A stretch of DNA of 64,000 nt from Halomonas chromatireducens (GTDB lineage: Bacteria; Pseudomonadota; Gammaproteobacteria; Pseudomonadales; Halomonadaceae): assembly GCF_001545155.1 (NCBI RefSeq), contig NZ_CP014226.1, forward strand, positions 1,960,551 through 2,024,550, given 5' to 3'. Of the stretch, positions 9,120 through 61,347 are shown in pieces. Both the position numbers and the translations under genes were made by a program. The notes under the pieces were generated by a model. That model searched no databases, was not told the origin of the DNA, and saw only the letters and a list, made by a program, of their open reading frames with translations. The first letter of the stretch is position 1, and each line of letters opens with the position of its first letter.

Positions 9120-10382
9120 ATGGCTCGACATGACCAGCGCGCGCCCACCCAGCCGGTTCGACCCGTTGGCTATGGGCTGCCAACGGTTCTCGCTGTTGGC
9201 CTGCACGTTCTGGTAGTGGTGCTCAGCGTGATCACCCTGCCGCAGCGTCAGCCGGAAGATCCCCTGACCAGCTCCATCGTACAGGCAACGCTGGTCAGCA
9301 CCGAGACCACCACGGACCAGGCCCAGCGTGCCGAGGAAGCGCGCTCTCGGGCACAGGCTCGCCAGGCAGAGGAAGAAGCCCAGCAGGCAGAGGCCGAAGC
9401 ACTCGAACGCGCTGCGGAAGAGCAGGCTGCCGAGGAAGCCGCACGCCAGGCCGAGCAGGAGGCGGCTGAGCGTGAGGCTGCACGTGAAGCCGAGGCACGC
9501 CAACGCGAAGAGGCGCGGGAAACGGCAGAAGCAGAGGCCCAGCGACGTGCTGAAGAGGCCGAGCGCCAGGCACAGCTGAGAGAAGAGCAGGAAGCCCAGC
9601 GCCAGCGCCAGCAGGAGGAAGCCGCCGAGGCGCAGCGTCAGGCCGAGGAAGAGGCTCGCCGCCAGGAAGCCGAGGCCCAGCGCCGGGCCGAAGAGGAAGC
9701 TCGTCGCCAGCAGGAGGCCGAGGAGCAGCGCCGCCGCGAGGAGGAAGAGGCCCGTCGCCAGCAGGAGGCCGAGGAGCAGCGCCGCCGCGAGGAGGAAGCG
9801 GCCCGTCGCCAGCAGGAGGCCGAGGAGCAGCGCCGCCGCGAGGAGGAAGATGCCCGTCGCCAGCAGGAGGCCGAGGAGCAGCGCCGTCGCGAGGAGGAAG
9901 CCCGTCGCCAGCAGGAAGCCGAGGAGCAGCGCCGTCGCGAGGAGGAAGAAGCCCGTCGCCAGCAGGAGGCCGAGGAGCAGCGCCGCCGCGAGGAGGAGGC
10001 ACGCCGAGCCGCGGAACAGGCCAGCCAGGGCCTCGATCGCGCCATAGAGGGTGAGAGCGAATCCGTGGCCAATGCACGCCAGGCGCAGGAGGCAGCCAAC
10101 AGCTTCATCAATCTGGTGCGAAGGGCGGTGGAACAGGCCTGGGTAATTCCCCCGGGTGCATCAGGAAACCTGGAGGCCACTGTTCAGGTCCAACTGGGAC
10201 CCTCTGGCGAGCTGTTTGGCGCTACTATTATGCAGACCAGTGGTGATAGCAGCTTCGACCGCTCTGCCATTCAGGCGGTGGAGGCCGCCGCACCGTTCGG
10301 TGAACTGCGCCAACTGCCCGCTTTGGCGCAGCGTGACTTTCGACAATTCAATCTGCGGTTTCGACCGGGAGATGTACGCTGA
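9120..10382 (+). CDS. tolA: Cell envelope integrity protein TolA
   Basis: Trans-periplasmic link between TolQR and the TolB-Pal complex; 420 residues. ATG 9120 is preferred, downstream of GAGGAGAAA; an in-frame GTG at 9096 overlaps that site. Domain I is one membrane helix ([18 protein letters not shown]). Domain II is an unusually regular Arg/Glu/Gln/Ala helix containing six near-identical repeats (9699-9998). Domain III (from about [17 protein letters not shown]) is the conserved TonB-like C-terminal domain. The stop overlaps tolB by one base (TGATG), so translation is coupled. Confidence 0.94.
9699..9998 (+). repeat. Six in-frame tandem repeats inside tolA
   Basis: Exactly 300 bases encode six units based on [16 protein letters not shown], with unit lengths of 17, 17, 17, 16, 17 and 16 residues. 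The bases are also nearly identical between units, so this is a DNA-level tandem array of 48-51 bases and not only a protein-level pattern. Gain or loss of a unit would keep the frame and only change the length of the periplasmic rod. Confidence 0.9.
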
Positions 10383-19672: not shown

Positions 19673-19681
<9 letters not shown>

Positions 19682-19795
19682 GACCGGCATGTAGCCGCGA
19701 ATACCGAGGTGTACACGGTGCCGCCAGTAGGCGAAGTTGGGGAAGGTAATGATGCACTCGTCGGCGACCCGCAGCATTTCGTCGAGCATCCGGTC
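19673..19795 (-). pseudogene. metW: Internal fragment of metW
   Basis: Forty-one antisense codons read [18 protein letters not shown] then [16 protein letters not shown] and YMPVSKT. This is the diagnostic central block of MetW, a methyltransferase-fold protein that works with MetX in homoserine acylation. Both ends are missing: the N-terminal SAM-like domain upstream and the LPYEWYDTPN segment that follows SKT. It is an orphan slice, inverted relative to the uvrB and amidase pieces that flank it. Confidence 0.75.
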
Positions 19796-19896
19796 GACGG
19801 CGAGCCCACCGCGCTGGCCCCGGACGAGATCGACATGACGCCGCTGGAAACCCGCCGCGTGGCGGGGCGCGACGGGCCGACCCACTGGCGCCTGGC

Positions 19897-54913: not shown

Positions 54914-54942
54914 CTGTTATGGAAGAGGGCGCTGGGCATAAT
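54914..54942 (+). promoter_or_regulatory. ectA: Candidate ect promoter
   Basis: CATAAT at 54937-54942 with a weak CTGTTA 17 bases upstream lies 68 bases before the ectA start. The ~240 bases between gor and ectA hold no ORF with a ribosome site. In Halomonas the ectABC promoter region responds to osmolarity, with sigma-70 and sigma-S-type start sites reported; I cannot assign those elements here. Confidence 0.3.
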
Positions 54943-55009
54943 GTCGAGTTTAATTTCGCCAAAAGCCCTGTTATCATTATGCGCAACATCGCTACAGCGA
55001 AGTCTGAAC

Positions 55010-56939
<1,930 letters not shown>

Positions 56940-57028: not shown

Positions 57029-57424
57029 ATGATCGTTCGCAATCTTGAGGAAGCGCGTCAAACCGACCGTCTGGTCAAGTCCGAGAGCGGGACCTGGGAC
57101 AGCACCCGTCTGGTACTGGCCGCCGATGGAGGTAATTTTTCCTTCCATATCACTCGCATCTATGAGGGCACCGAAACACACATCCACTACAAGCATCACT
57201 ATGAATCGGTGTACTGCATCGAGGGTGAAGGTGAAGTGGAAACCTTGGCGGATGGCAAGATCTGGCCGATCAAGCCCGGCGACATCTATATTCTCGACCA
57301 GCATGACGAGCACCTGCTGCGAGCCCACAAGACCATGCATCTGGCATGTGTCTTCACGCCGCCGATCACCGGTAATGAAGTGCATCGCGAAGACGGCTCC
57401 TACGCACCGGCAGACGACAATTGA
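57029..57424 (+). CDS. ectC: Ectoine synthase EctC
   Basis: Cupin-fold dehydratase closing the ectoine ring. It has 131 residues and opens [21 protein letters not shown]. The iron-binding residues described for EctC correspond here to Glu59, Tyr87 and His95 (in [13 protein letters not shown] and [12 protein letters not shown]). The C-terminus HREDGSYAP is family-typical. It ends the ectABC operon; no ectD hydroxylase or ectR lies next to it. A strong terminator follows at 57453. Confidence 0.97.
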
Positions 57425-57507: not shown

Positions 57508-57535
57508 GGTTCGCATAATGTATATTATGTTAAAT
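57508..57535 (+). other. dif site (XerC/XerD chromosome dimer resolution site)
   Basis: Twenty-eight bases match the E. coli dif site at 27 positions. The XerC arm is GGTTCGCATAA (one change, G to T at position 4), the central region is TGTATA (exact) and the XerD arm is TTATGTTAAAT (exact). It is non-coding, 84 bases after ectC. dif is normally a unique site at the replication terminus, where FtsK-activated XerCD resolves chromosome dimers. Similar sites can also be captured by elements that integrate through XerCD. Confidence 0.9.
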
Positions 57536-57696: not shown

Positions 57697-57770
57697 ATGC
57701 GACCGAGACCACTGATCGCCGCTATGCCCTGGTTGCTGGCCTCCCTGCTGATTTCCGGTTGCGCGCTGCC
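57697..57770 (+). pseudogene. Lipoprotein signal peptide only, rest missing
   Basis: ATG 57697 has GGAGG eight bases upstream. The reading MRPRPLIAAMPWLLASLLIS followed by GC is a clear lipoprotein leader. After CALPP the plus frame becomes antisense to an Mrp antiporter subunit, so the mature protein is lost at about base 57770. The identity of the lipoprotein cannot be told. Confidence 0.55.
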
Positions 57771-58108
57771 ACCCAGGCGAGCCAGATCACCGCCAGGCCG
57801 GTACCTCCCATGGCCAGGTACTGGAGTGGACGTTGCCAGCGGCGGGGGTCGGCCCCGGCACTGGTGCCGGCTGGCAGTCGTCCCAGGGCCGTCAGCAGCA
57901 GGGCGCCGGTGACGCCGGCGCCGATGGCGGCCTCCGCCAGGGCGATATCCGGTGCGTCCAGGCGAACCCACACCAGTGCCATCAGCAGGTAGAAGGCCAT
58001 GAAATTGACCACGGCGGAAAAGCGGCGCGGGGTGAACAGGGCCTGCCAGGCCAGCCACAGCAAGCCTGCGGCAAGCAGCAAGTCGAACCCCCAGGCCAGC
58101 ACCCTCAC
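57771..58108 (-). pseudogene. Mrp/Mnh antiporter subunit B-like protein (MbhD/DUF4040), 3' end cut off
   Basis: Membrane subunit of a multisubunit cation/proton antiporter. The start MRVLAWGFDLLLAAGLLWLAW and the segment FMAFYLLMALVWVRLDAPDIALAEAAIGAGVTGALLLTAL are typical of the MbhD/DUF4040 part of MrpB. About 112 codons remain; the fragment ends in a membrane helix (LAVIWLAWV) at the seam with the lipoprotein leader. It follows mnhG with a four-base overlap. Confidence 0.75.
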
Positions 58109-58452
58109 TTCGGGGCGGGCCTTTCGCTTGTCGTCGTGTTTGACGGCATGTCAGCCTGTTGCGGGGCAAGGCCGCATGCTAGCGCCGTCGAGGCGATCAG
58201 GGTAGCCCCGATACCGGAGGCAACCAGCATCAACAACCAGATCAGCAGGTATTTCACGGCCTCGGCAAGGCCCGAGGCTTGAAAGGCAAGTCCCAGGCAG
58301 ATCAGGCCGAGGCCGAGGTTATCGGCTTTGGTCAGGGCGTGCAGACGGGTGAAGACATCCGGGAAGCGCAGCAGGCCAAGGCTGCCGGCCAGGAAGAACA
58401 GGATGCCGGCAGCAACGAACCCGTAGCCGAGCCAATGCAGTGCTTCAGTCAT
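58105..58452 (-). CDS. mnhG: Cation/proton antiporter subunit G (MnhG/MrpG)
   Basis: A 115-residue membrane protein with three hydrophobic segments. WLGYGFVAAGILFFLAGSLGLLRFPDVFTRLHALTKADNLGLG is the MnhG/PhaG signature. ATG 58452 overlaps the end of mnhF by eight bases. The subunit belongs to Mrp complexes that expel Na+ or K+ in exchange for protons, fitting a halophile. Confidence 0.9.
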   Translation of the reverse strand: MTEALHWLGYGFVAAGILFFLAGSLGLLRFPDVFTRLHALTKADNLGLGLICLGLAFQASGLAEAVKYLLIWLLMLVASGIGATLIASTALACGLAPQQADMPSNTTTSERPAPK

Positions 58453-58744
58453 GGCCTGCCTCTTCTCGGGTGTCCTTGTCATCGCGCAGCAGTGTCCAGG
58501 TGCGCGTGACGAAATTGGCCATGGCCACGGCGGCCAGCAGGGCGAAGAGCAGTGCCACGTCCACCAGTGCCGACTGGTCGGAGACGATGCTCAGCAGCAG
58601 CAGTACGGCGATGGCCGAGGTGGTGATCATCTCGGCAGCCAGCATGCGGTCGGCGCTGGTGGGACCGCGCAGGATCCGCCAGGCGCCGACGCCGGCATTG
58701 GCCAGCAGCAGTGCCGCACCGACGGCATACAGGTAGGTCGTCAT
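58445..58744 (-). CDS. mnhF: Cation/proton antiporter subunit F (MnhF/MrpF)
   Basis: A 99-residue membrane protein with three helices. The segment RILRGPTSADRMLAAEMITTSAIAVLLLLS and the following DVALLFALLAAVAMANF are diagnostic for MnhF. It sits between mnhE and mnhG with tiny spacers or overlaps, the canonical E-F-G order. Confidence 0.92.
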   Translation of the reverse strand: MTTYLYAVGAALLLANAGVGAWRILRGPTSADRMLAAEMITTSAIAVLLLLSIVSDQSALVDVALLFALLAAVAMANFVTRTWTLLRDDKDTREEAGHD

Positions 58745-58748
58745 GGAG

Positions 58749-59234
58749 CTAGGTCTCCTTCCGGTGGGTTACTCCGAAGAGAGCGGCAATACGTCGTTCG
58801 AGCCGTACCAGAGAGGCCGCGGTGCCGTTGTGCAGGTTCAGGACGTGGACCTGCAGGGTGCCGGAGGCGAGACGCAGTGCCAGGGTGCCGGGTATCAGGT
58901 TGATCAGGCTGGCCATGAACAGTTGGGCCGGGCCTTCGGGCAGATAATGCCAGCGGTGTTCGATCACTCTTGTGTTGAGCCGGAGCGAGGGGCGGCAGGC
59001 CAGCCAGGCCACCTCCAGTCCGCCGCGAAGGGCCAGCCAGAGGGCATGGGGCACGAACAGGAGAACCGCCAAGGGGCGCAGTTGCCAGTTGAAGACGGGC
59101 ATCAGCACCGCCGCGGCAAGTATGGCTGGCACTCCCCAGGCCCAGGAGGCGGGGTCGCCGCTGCTGATGGCCCACCACAGCAGCGACAGTATCGCCAGTC
59201 GCCATGCCCATGCCTGCCAACGTCGATAGTTCAT
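58749..59234 (-). CDS. mnhE: Cation/proton antiporter subunit E (MnhE/MrpE)
   Basis: A 161-residue protein with N-terminal membrane helices and the MnhE C-terminal domain: SLINLIPGTLALRLASGTLQVHVLNL. It is four bases upstream of mnhF. Its ATG overlaps the stop of the P-type ATPase fragment (ATGA), so the two were translated together in the source operon. Confidence 0.9.
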   Translation of the reverse strand: MNYRRWQAWAWRLAILSLLWWAISSGDPASWAWGVPAILAAAVLMPVFNWQLRPLAVLLFVPHALWLALRGGLEVAWLACRPSLRLNTRVIEHRWHYLPEGPAQLFMASLINLIPGTLALRLASGTLQVHVLNLHNGTAASLVRLERRIAALFGVTHRKET

Positions 59235-59554
59235 TGGGTTGAGGCGCTGGCCTTGTCATGCTGCCCCGCCGCCGGGGTGTCGGGCGACTTGCGCACGCGC
59301 AGCACCCACTTCTCCAGCTCCACGATGAGGAATATCGACACGCTGCCGGCCAGTATGACGAGCCAATGCAGCGGCGCCAGGCCGGCACTGCCGAAGACCG
59401 TCTGCATGAAGGGCAGGTAGGTCCAGCCAAGCTGCAGCAGGACGACGAGCCCGATGGCCATCCACACCGGTTGGCTGCCGAAGATGCCCTGCACGGAGAG
59501 TGCGCTGTGGACCAGGAAGCGGCTGTTGATCAGGTAGGCGGCGCTGCCCATGAC
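59231..59554 (-). pseudogene. C-terminal membrane part of a cation-transporting P-type ATPase
   Basis: About 107 codons reading VMGSAAYLINSRFL, then FGSQPVWMAIGLVVLLQLGW and YLPFMQTVFGSAGLAPLHW. This is the last membrane module of Ca2+/Na+-type (P2) ATPases, where N.LV.G...YL.N.R and ...Y.P..q.iF.t..L....W are conserved. The catalytic domains with the DKTG phosphorylation site are missing. The stop overlaps mnhE. A P-type ATPase followed by Mrp subunits is an arrangement I recall from other marine gammaproteobacteria. Confidence 0.7.
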
Positions 59555-59665
59555 CAGCGAACCTTCCGAGCCGCACAGCAGGCTGTTCATGTCGAGGCGA
59601 CCTTCCGCATCTCTCAAGTGCGCCAGATCATAGCCCGTCAGGCAGCGGTTGAGTGGCGGGAACTT
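59555..59665 (-). pseudogene. Internal fragment of a YdiJ-type FAD-binding oxidoreductase
   Basis: Thirty-seven codons read KFPPLNRCLTGYDLAHLRD, then EGRLDMNSLLCGSEGSL. This is the FAD-binding segment of YdiJ-family (D-lactate/2-hydroxyglutarate-type) dehydrogenases, which have PLNR.LTGYDL.h......f.mN.LLcGSEGTL. It is fused in frame to the P-type ATPase tail on one side and to an M16-like slice on the other. Both ends are lost. Confidence 0.65.
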
Positions 59666-59666
59666 G

Positions 59667-59769
59667 GCGCCGCCAGCTCGTCGTCCTCCAGCGCGCCCAG
59701 TCGCTCGCCAAAGGCGTCCAGGAAGGCGTCGATATGCGTCAGGATCTCGTCGCTGGGGGTATCCGGCGA
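59667..59769 (-). pseudogene. Short fragment, possibly of an M16 (pitrilysin-like) peptidase
   Basis: In another minus frame, about 33 codons read SPDTPSDEILTHIDAFLD then AFGERLGALEDDELAA. The pattern P..i...IdaFl..f...l..l...E resembles the non-catalytic half of insulinase-like peptidases. The piece is too short for certainty. It lies between the YdiJ slice and the integrase start. Confidence 0.35.
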
Positions 59770-59771
59770 CT

Positions 59772-59993
59772 GCCCTGTTCACCCAGCCAGAGCAGCAACC
59801 GCTCGGCCTCACGACGATAGGCACGCAGCGTCTGCGGGCTGGCGCGAAACTCGGCCAGCCACAGCGCCACGGCATGGTGGTCGTCGCCCGCGGCGATTCG
59901 AGCCGCCGCCCGGTCGGCCACCGGCACGACCGAAGCGTCCTGCCCCACGGTCAGCTGTGGCTGTGGTGTTTGCTCTTGCCCTGCCTCGCTCAC
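59772..59993 (-). pseudogene. N-terminal part of a tyrosine-type integrase/recombinase
   Basis: ATG 59993 opens a 74-codon fragment. The segment AVALWLAEFRASPQTLRAYRREAERLLLWLGEQ is the SAM-like core-binding domain found at the N-terminus of phage-type integrases and Xer-like recombinases. The catalytic domain (Arg...His-x-x-Arg...Tyr) is absent because the fragment ends at a seam. It is divergent from the kfrA-like gene, a pairing that may be functional in the intact locus. Confidence 0.7.
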
Positions 59994-60267
59994 GCTGCGC
60001 TCTCCCGCCCACGGCTGGGGTTCTACTGCTCATTTTCGCGTGGATAGCGTCAAATAATCAAGATAAGACGGGTAATCATGAATTTATTGTTATTTCATAA
60101 GGTATTTTACGTAACGGATATAATGTAATTATCTTCCCCTTCTGCTCGACTCGCACTAAACTATCTCCAACAGACGTCGAGCTGGGCAGATAGGACGACG
60201 AGGGAGCTAGGGCGCGTAGCTGCGCTTCTCAGCAGGGCATGAACATGGATGACGGCAGGAGAGCGGC
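59994..60267. other. AT-rich divergent promoter region between integrase and kfrA-like genes
   Basis: This 274-base gap contains the most AT-rich stretch in the window (about 28% GC in 60061-60120). A TATAAT lies at 60119-60124 on the plus strand with no good -35. No tRNA or small gene was seen. Such a region is where a KfrA-type protein would be expected to bind its own promoter; no clear operator repeat was identified. Confidence 0.5.
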
Positions 60268-61347
60268 ATGGCACGCAGCGGAGTGCAGTACGAAGATGTA
60301 AAGCAGGCAATCGATACCCTGATGGCCAAGGGAGAAGCCCCCAGCGTGCAAAAGATCAGGGACGTGCTGGGGACCGGTAGCTTCACGACCATCAGCGACC
60401 ACCTTCGCGAATGGCGCGCGCGGCGGGAAGTGCGCGCCGAAACCGTGACCACTCAAGGCATGCCAGAGCCGGTTCAGCAGCTGGCCGAAGGGCTTTGGGA
60501 GAAGGCGCAGGATGCTGCCGGAGCTGCCCTCGCCGAGTATCGTGAAGCAGCGGACCGCGAGGTCACAGCGGCCAGGGCTGCCGTTCAGGATGCCAGACGC
60601 GAGGCAGAGGATGCGGAGCAGCGCGAAGCGGCACTCTCCGCCCACCTGGCCAGCATCGAGCAGCGGCTGGAAGCACGCAGTGCTGCCCTGGCCACCGCGG
60701 AAGTCGAGCGCGATCAGGCCATTGAAACGGCCCGCCGGCTGGGTGAGCGACTCGCCCGAAGCCTACAGCAGCTTGAGCGACTGCAGGCAGAAAGCGAGCT
60801 GCAGCTTCAGACCCACCAGCAGGCCCTGGGGGAGCGGGAAGCACAGCACCAGGCACGCCAGCTTCAGGAAGAACAGCGCCACGAAGCCGCCGAAGCACGG
60901 CTAATGAGCCTGCTGGATGAGGCGCGCCAAGAGCGCCTGTCCGGCGAGAAGCGCTACGCGGCCAACCTGCGACAGCTGGAAAGCCGCCAGGAAGCGCTGA
61001 AGCAAGAGCTGCAGGAAATGCGCGCCATACTGGCCAAGGAAGAGAAACAGCACCGGGAAACCCAGTGGGCTCGCACCCGAGCAGAAGAGCGTGCCGAGAC
61101 CATGCGCCACGAACAGTCACTGCTGCAGGCGCGCATCGACGACCAGAAGCGCCACCTAGAAGAGCAGGCCAGTCGCTTGCGCCTGCTGGAGTCCGAGATC
61201 AGCCGTCGGCTCTGGCAGGGCGAAGCGCATCACCAGAGGGAAGTGCGAGGGGCTCCCGCGACGAAAAAAGGCCCCGCCAATACGGAGCCTGCAAAGGTAT
61301 CGATCGGCAAAAGCGAAATCGACAGGAGTGAGAGCGAGAGCCGCTAA
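60268..61347 (+). CDS. KfrA-like DNA-binding coiled-coil protein
   Basis: A 359-residue protein with an N-terminal KfrA DNA-binding domain (QYEDVKQAIDTLMAKGEAPSVQKIRDVLGTGSFTTISDHLREWRARR) and a long continuous coiled coil from about residue 90 to 320. Plasmid KfrA proteins autoregulate and form a matrix aiding partition. Chromosomal copies often neighbour integrases, and here the divergent neighbour is an integrase fragment. GGAGAG precedes the ATG. It is more likely a regulator or nucleoid-associated protein of a mobile or formerly mobile locus. Confidence 0.85.
   Translation: MARSGVQYEDVKQAIDTLMAKGEAPSVQKIRDVLGTGSFTTISDHLREWRARREVRAETVTTQGMPEPVQQLAEGLWEKAQDAAGAALAEYREAADREVTAARAAVQDARREAEDAEQREAALSAHLASIEQRLEARSAALATAEVERDQAIETARRLGERLARSLQQLERLQAESELQLQTHQQALGEREAQHQARQLQEEQRHEAAEARLMSLLDEARQERLSGEKRYAANLRQLESRQEALKQELQEMRAILAKEEKQHRETQWARTRAEERAETMRHEQSLLQARIDDQKRHLEEQASRLRLLESEISRRLWQGEAHHQREVRGAPATKKGPANTEPAKVSIGKSEIDRSESESR

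Follow-up and report, generated by a model that had tools for sequence, protein, structure and literature searches.

The window analysed here, a 64,000-nucleotide stretch of the Halomonas chromatireducens genome, carries at 57508-57535 a sequence that we are highly confident is best explained as the chromosomal dif site of this Halomonas/Billgrantia chromosome. The only unusual part of the locus lies a few kilobases away, in the form of a tyrosine recombinase gene, a divergent gene for a KfrA_N-domain protein and a short core between them, which together would make up a putative second terminus-linked system. In Halomonadaceae the presence near dif of this unit, which resembles the TnpS/TnpT resolution modules, is a conserved sequence pattern, and its function would follow from that likeness. 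The fragmented genes immediately to the right of dif, in turn, seem to owe more to the assembly than to the cell.

The dif site and the position of the terminus

The site is the following:

57508..57535, + strand: dif, GGTTCGCATAATGTATATTATGTTAAAT, 27 of 28 bases identical to E. coli dif

The one mismatch falls in the XerC arm, and the sequence has the 28-bp layout of the gammaproteobacterial type, with 11-bp arms and a 6-bp centre. With boundaries that we assume from E. coli dif, the XerC arm would span 57508-57518, the centre 57519-57524 and the XerD arm 57525-57535. No second match with up to three mismatches exists in the window, and 100 shuffled versions of it gave none at all, so the near-perfect identity announced by the sequence-only reading is borne out. 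The genome-wide search for further dif-like sites that it had proposed was also run: at up to three mismatches, the 26-base dif consensus has a single match in the whole genome, a contig of 3,973,651 bases of which the window is 1,960,551-2,024,550, and the same consensus read backwards has none, in agreement with the one copy per chromosome of a chromosomal dif. When the centre was left free, so that only the 15 arm bases counted, a 42% sample of the genome contained no other site with up to two mismatches and two sites with three. The genome encodes XerD (354 bits, against an NCBIfam cut-off of 330), as well as a second Xer protein that we count as XerC, its best family, with a score of 323 bits that falls 12 bits short of the cut-off of 335. 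A comparison of the whole window with Rfam at gathering scores gave no match.

The position of the site in the chromosome was considered by means of GC skew and of the FtsK-orienting KOPS octamers, over a sample of 1.644 Mb (41% of the genome). In this sample the GC skew is best split with an origin close to 3.97 Mb and a terminus at 1.92-1.94 Mb, and the 344 KOPS with a terminus at 2.02 Mb; dif is found at 2.018 Mb, about 0.08-0.1 Mb from the skew switch. Furthermore, the distance from dif to mnmG (the best match to the GIDA family), which lies at 3.970 Mb, amounts to 49% of the genome. A result that counts against the terminus placement is the position of dnaA at 1.15 Mb (1.152), flanked by ORFs that we take to be dnaN, recF and gyrB, which is only 22% of the genome from dif; and KOPS alone fit an origin at 0.2 Mb or at 1.2 Mb nearly alike (scores 90 and 88). 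Assembly disorder is an unproven reading of this offset. Altogether, the proposal that dif marks the chromosome terminus is supported by its single copy, by the KOPS and skew switches and by mnmG, with neither equally good dif-like sites elsewhere nor a far-off inversion of the skew having been found, and with dnaA as the discordant marker.

As an observation apart, dnaA and mnmG are separated by 1.15 Mb, either because the assembly is disordered or because the origin region is split; the ORF that we take to be mnmE is followed by a presumptive rlmJ, not by mnmG.

The site thus shares with the E. coli dif/XerCD/FtsK system 27 of its 28 bases, its single copy, its terminus position, the polarity of KOPS and the presence of both recombinases in the genome, and differs from it in one base of the XerC arm and in adjoining ectC, a neighbourhood that is common to most of the relatives examined. 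Its sequence, copy number and position are observed; by analogy with the well-known E. coli system, XerC and XerD would bind the two arms, FtsK, guided by KOPS, would bring two copies of dif together, and XerCD would resolve chromosome dimers at cell division. It is very likely, then, an ordinary chromosomal XerCD/dif site.

The ectoine operon, dif and the right flank

On its left side, dif is adjoined by the genes of ectoine synthesis:

54941..55588, + strand: ORF for a GNAT acetyltransferase of the ectA type (Acetyltransf_1, 57 bits), left conserved flank; we assume the name from the gene order
55674..56939, + strand: ORF for an aminotransferase, presumably ectB, with the start read from the sequence; its order is kept in relatives
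57029..57424, + strand: ectC, ectoine synthase (PF06339, 186 bits; NCBIfam ectoine synthase), 83 bases upstream of dif

A dif site with up to two mismatches was found in 84 of 90 genomes of the genus (its own included) and in 249 of 275 genomes of the family, exactly one in each, and the backwards controls gave none. The neighbourhood was surveyed in 40 dif-centred loci of 20 kb, a subset of the 83 dif-bearing relatives of the genus for which, among other requirements, there had to be room on the contig; tblastn matches below 45% identity were ignored. ectC is present in 35 of these loci and no more than 1.3 kb from dif in 30, in all of them on the same strand as dif. The usual order is can, gor, ectA, ectB, ectC, dif, lipoprotein/Zn-protease, inactive transglutaminase, ATP-grasp, Fur family, hisI, (DJ-1), sufE, tyrosine recombinase, kfrA, nfuA and metH, where the genes between dif and kfrA were named with Pfam support and can, gor, nfuA and metH are names that we assume from the sequence. 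The close relatives compared include Billgrantia montanilacus (G048) and Halomonas alkalisoli (G006). This comparison of the ectC-dif interval, also called for by the sequence-only reading, reveals an arrangement that is common in the genus and a right flank that is intact in the relatives. Among the open-licence PMC papers listed by literature searches, no title or displayed abstract dealt with a linkage of ect and dif, or with a chromosomal TnpS/TnpT-like module near dif.

In three loci (L149, L244 and L263) the orientation of dif is flipped with respect to the flanking genes, with the neighbours kept, which suggests local inversions around dif.

In the window, on the contrary, the right flank is broken:

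57697..57773, + strand: 5′ piece of the lipoprotein/Zn_protease-family gene that comes next after dif in relatives (78% identity over 27 residues)
57773..59558, - strand: displaced piece of the ATPase-mrpEFGB operon (89% identical to 6592-8380 of L187, from a relative)
59554..59773, no strand: probable contig mis-join, made of 115-bp and 106-bp exact copies of distant loci

The first of these pieces keeps only the initial 26-27 codons of a gene which in a relative encodes 282 amino acids (PF05618). The fragments of 57773..59558 are pieces of an Mrp-type antiporter operon and of a cation ATPase; the operon is intact in H. alkalisoli, and in the genome analysed here one has to go to 2.74 Mb for its downstream part and to 1.65 Mb for its upstream neighbours. 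The third consists of 115 bp copied exactly from 958954-959068, followed by 106 bp copied exactly, and inverted, from 3507601-3507706, and the recombinase gene is cut exactly where the latter copy begins, near codon 83. Some 46 kb farther to the right, the stretch 2.066-2.073 Mb contains the missing middle of the conserved block, together with the C-terminal part of the recombinase at 2.072 Mb, so that this gene is split in the assembly. The displaced block lies between a truncated LysR-family gene and a gene that matches DUF5801 weakly; on the latter side an N is found about 156 bases past the recombinase end of the block. The possibility that the recombinase block and the ATPase/mrp segment had simply changed places in one reciprocal swap was considered and rejected, because these neighbours are not the ATPase and because the downstream part of the operon lies elsewhere.

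Two quite different origins can be conceived for the fragments, besides the faulty joining of contigs. On the first, the 28-mer would be the attachment site of an Xer-exploiting integrative element (IMEX), of which the fragments would be the remains; the fragments themselves, the front of an integrase gene and a plasmid-type KfrA gene, all within 4 kb of dif, agree with it. An element of this kind would be bounded by two dif-like sites, whereas a single one exists in the genome at up to three mismatches. Moreover, the ect-dif layout is a common one among genomes of the genus, 33 of the 40 dif-centred loci have the integrase and KfrA genes as conserved neighbours on the chromosome, kfrA stands beside the recombinase in all 39 named loci, and the other fragments match ordinary host operons. 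We therefore regard an IMEX as extremely improbable, and an insertion of the integrase and KfrA genes was rejected in view of their conservation beside dif in relatives. The sequence-only reading was right in seeing an integrase front and a KfrA-like gene beside dif; they are not an inserted element, and are what the assembly has left of a conserved pair of a recombinase and a DNA-binding protein.

On the second, the breaks would be real, a recent rearrangement having scattered the block from the zinc-protease to the recombinase and the ATPase-mrp operon. The deposited sequence is a single contig with a completeness of 99.99%, and at two junctions, 57773 and 1438 of L177, neither an N nor an exact copied flank was found; part of the rearrangement may be real for this reason, at least as concerns 57773. 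Against a real rearrangement stand the cut of the recombinase gene at an exact copy of a distant locus, with the other copy before it, and the N beyond the displaced block. Indeed, isolated single Ns are a feature of the deposited sequence, with 35 of them in the 1.664 Mb sampled (e.g., 3706158, 559707 and 1404655). Of the 35, 16 are flanked by sequence that recurs elsewhere at 98-100% identity (in one case only as a local copy 0.4 kb away), as against 10 of 1000 random positions; the other 19 have no copied flank within the sampled part, and 11 exact copies of 129-189 bp directly abut an N. Except that the N itself is missing, the cut in the recombinase gene is built like these single-N joins. 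Furthermore, the displaced C-terminal part of the recombinase has a dN/dS of 0.14 against H. alkalisoli, which fits an intact gene, as well as a gene broken recently. A real rearrangement thus appears rather unlikely to us.

In our judgement the gene fragments to the right of dif are very probably contig mis-joins in a pseudo-chromosome and not the product of an insertion hot spot, and the deposited chromosome was probably strung together from contigs whose ends are faulty. Since it has this appearance, its large-scale order, such as the distance between dnaA and mnmG, is not to be trusted, nor should a biological meaning be given to its local rearrangements. The earlier description of the adjacent 2.5 kb as full of gene fragments is accurate for the deposited sequence and doubtful for the cell, and the idea of an insertion or rearrangement hot spot finds no support, as the relatives share a conserved flank and the cut in the recombinase gene carries the signature of a mis-join.

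Three further repeats were noted in the window: 19673-19796, whose 124 bp recur exactly, in inverted form, at 3618443-3618566, and which is possibly another contig join; 1-1574, all 1,574 bp of which are found exactly and inverted at 1210913-1212486, with additional exact pieces up to window position 1989 and an N at 1212513; and tandem-like direct repeats of 31-45 bp at 9704-9997.

The recombinase/KfrA pair and the core between its genes

Beyond the probable mis-join, the window resumes the order of its relatives within the recombinase gene:

59773..60005, - strand: N-terminal piece of a tyrosine recombinase of about 400 amino acids (85% identity over residues 4-83)
60056..60083, + strand: 11-6-11 core, AATCAAGATAA GACGGG TAATCATGAAT, conserved in 40 aligned sequences
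60268..61347, + strand: KfrA_N coiled-coil DNA-binding protein, a TnpT-like partner (PF11740, 99 bits), divergent from the recombinase

In 39 named relatives the recombinase is complete, with about 400 residues and no stop codons in the matched part, all six catalytic residues (R-K-H-R-H-Y) are present, and a divergent kfrA stands beside it. The fetched stretch includes a dif with up to two mismatches in 33 of these 39 loci, at a distance of 5.1-6.8 kb, with one at 8.6 kb; among the six loci lacking dif in their stretch, one (L257) is cut by the end of its contig. Seen from dif, both genes are present in 33 of the 40 loci. The conserved distance may be plain synteny, because the genes in between are equally conserved. 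When homologues of the recombinase were searched for, eight genomes of the family gave matches and at least one (G175) did not; in phages and viral contigs, the search for the recombinase family found one phage record (33% identity) and no viral contig. Purifying selection acts on the gene, with dN/dS of 0.14-0.17 for the C-terminal part in three pairs and of 0.21 for the full gene in one pair, which argues for a function and not for which function.

The consensus of the core is AATCAAGATAA-N6-TAATCTTGAAT, from which the copy in the window departs at two positions. Across the 40 sequences, the arms have a mean column conservation of 0.93, against 0.75 for the spacer and 0.53 for the flanks. 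A best core was found in all 40, located by best match to the consensus of the same alignment, and the most divergent (L228) has 10 mismatches of 33; the spacer GACGGG is common to 10 of them. The pairing of the outer arm positions, which co-vary, was reached by 12 of 5000 shuffles, a signal weakened by the kinship of the sequences. The case for the core rests on its conservation, since 71 of 300 shuffles do as well as the window copy when it is judged as a palindrome alone. The sampled genome sequence contains no other such site at up to three mismatches. TACGTAA-like repeats follow the core; a TnpS/TnpT/rst system would have a second inverted repeat pair, IRa/IRb.

Beyond the family, a homologue of the recombinase (43-46% identical) accompanied by a KfrA_N partner exists in two genomes, G459 and G383, whose partners score 50 and 41 bits. 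In G383 (L273 2644-2847) the core has 19 of the 22 halomonad arm bases and a 10/11 palindrome, neither reached in 300 shuffles, and the pair lies 94 kb from its dif. Given a core almost identical to that of the halomonads, the site may be older than the family.

A distant clade of recombinases is located close to dif-like sites: 39 bp away in G321 (L294 1930-1957), 20 bp in G354 (L295 2149-2174) and 5.3 kb in G314. A dif with up to three mismatches was detected in four of the 28 genomes of other families with a homologue, namely these three and G383. Among the 24 remaining genomes, 20 were searched for a canonical dif up to 1.15 kb downstream of the homologue, and none scored above the best of 20 shuffles; dif may be divergent there. 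The two dif-adjacent recombinases of G321 and G354, which come from two other families of the order, resemble the arrangement of single-module systems.

It could be argued from the position of the gene that the conserved recombinase is a third Xer with dif itself as its target, as no more than 10 kb separate it from dif in 33 of the 39 named loci and its distant relatives in G321 and G354 are a few tens of base pairs from a dif-like site. These relatives, though, form a separate clade, and the gene just upstream of them is not divergent; plasmid relatives (see below) have the same recombinase/KfrA_N pair; XerC and XerD are both present; and the halomonad gene has beside it a conserved core of its own, found also at the homologous pair of G383 in another family. 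A third Xer is hence a very improbable reading. To judge from the sequence pattern, the recombinase and KfrA would probably act at their own core, 60056-60083, and not at dif.

The locus may also be compared with the single-recombinase systems XerS/difSL, XerH/difH and XerL/dif. XerS and XerH are encoded near their sites (PMC5357621, PMC9765430), a feature shared with the halomonad recombinase; as a difference, XerC and XerD coexist here and the neighbouring recombinase has its own core.

Resemblance to transposon and plasmid modules

The closest parallel in layout is offered by TnpS and TnpT, which PMC7157771 describes as a two-part resolvase with the rst site between their genes; a paper on a Xanthomonas plasmid contains both TnpT/TnpS and KfrA (PMC4619425). 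In Tn4651 of pWW0, the KfrA_N protein and the site-specific integrase would correspond, from their position and description, to TnpT and TnpS. The halomonad unit shares with it a tyrosine recombinase and a divergent KfrA_N-domain partner, and in the published system a site lies between the two (PMC7157771). The halomonad unit has, as expected for a TnpS/TnpT/rst module, a tyrosine recombinase with the six catalytic residues, a divergent helper of the KfrA_N/TnpT type and a palindromic core between the genes. It has neither homology to TnpS nor, as judged from the neighbouring genes, a place in a Tn3-family transposon: its recombinase gave no BLASTP match to the pWW0 enzyme up to an E value of 10, and the tree places pWW0 TnpS outside the halomonad recombinases; no transposase was noted among the genes of the halomonad block, where the neighbours are by comparison of a housekeeping type; and the pair holds a stable chromosomal position near dif across genera. 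The KfrA of the window matches the pWW0 partner over 47 N-terminal residues only (45%, E 1e-7). A core sequence shared with Tn4651 was looked for and rejected, the pWW0 intergenic region being no better than its shuffles (156 of 300). The halomonad unit, therefore, would work like a TnpS/TnpT module and is not classified as a member, because the similarity of both proteins is low.

The pairs carried by plasmids of Caballeronia (pSBC2-3), Rhodanobacter and Mycetohabitans (pBRH02) have a recombinase 39-42% identical to that of the halomonads and a divergent KfrA_N partner. They differ in their plasmid context and in partners that give no significant BLASTP match to the KfrA of the window. Of the five plasmids inspected, those of Cupriavidus and Caballeronia encode a Tn3-family transposase nearby, and a divergent partner was not seen in the Cupriavidus and Vogesella stretches. 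In Caballeronia and Rhodanobacter an exact copy of the inner core, GATAA-N6-TAATC, lies between the two genes, and Cupriavidus pRK1-3 has one upstream of its recombinase (0-4 of 2000 shuffles for each of the three plasmids). Compared with the halomonad arms, these three reach 15 of 22 bases, as did 4-11 of 300 shuffles. Mycetohabitans has a perfect 11-6-11 palindrome of another sequence (0 of 300 shuffles), and neither it nor pWW0 stands out against shuffles in the match to the halomonad core arms. In the tree, the nodes that join the plasmid and the dif-adjacent groups have supports of 0.23 and 0.44.

These data allow a wider reading, which we advance tentatively and hold to be doubtful for now: Halomonadaceae may keep two systems of site-specific recombination in the replication terminus, separated by a few kilobases. 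One is XerCD/dif; the other would be a TnpS/TnpT-like module, domesticated and vertically inherited, which consists of the recombinase, the KfrA_N helper and their own 28-bp core, is free of a transposon and acts in the terminus region. This second system might, for example, resolve chromosome dimers, or cointegrates between plasmid and chromosome, either as a back-up or under regulation.

The dif site itself is a textbook feature, and it provides a firm mark of the terminus for a group used in biotechnology, in which the ectoine operon adjoins dif in most of the genomes examined. If the unit of recombinase, KfrA and core does work, it would exemplify a resolution module of a transposon or plasmid that has become a permanent component of the chromosome terminus.
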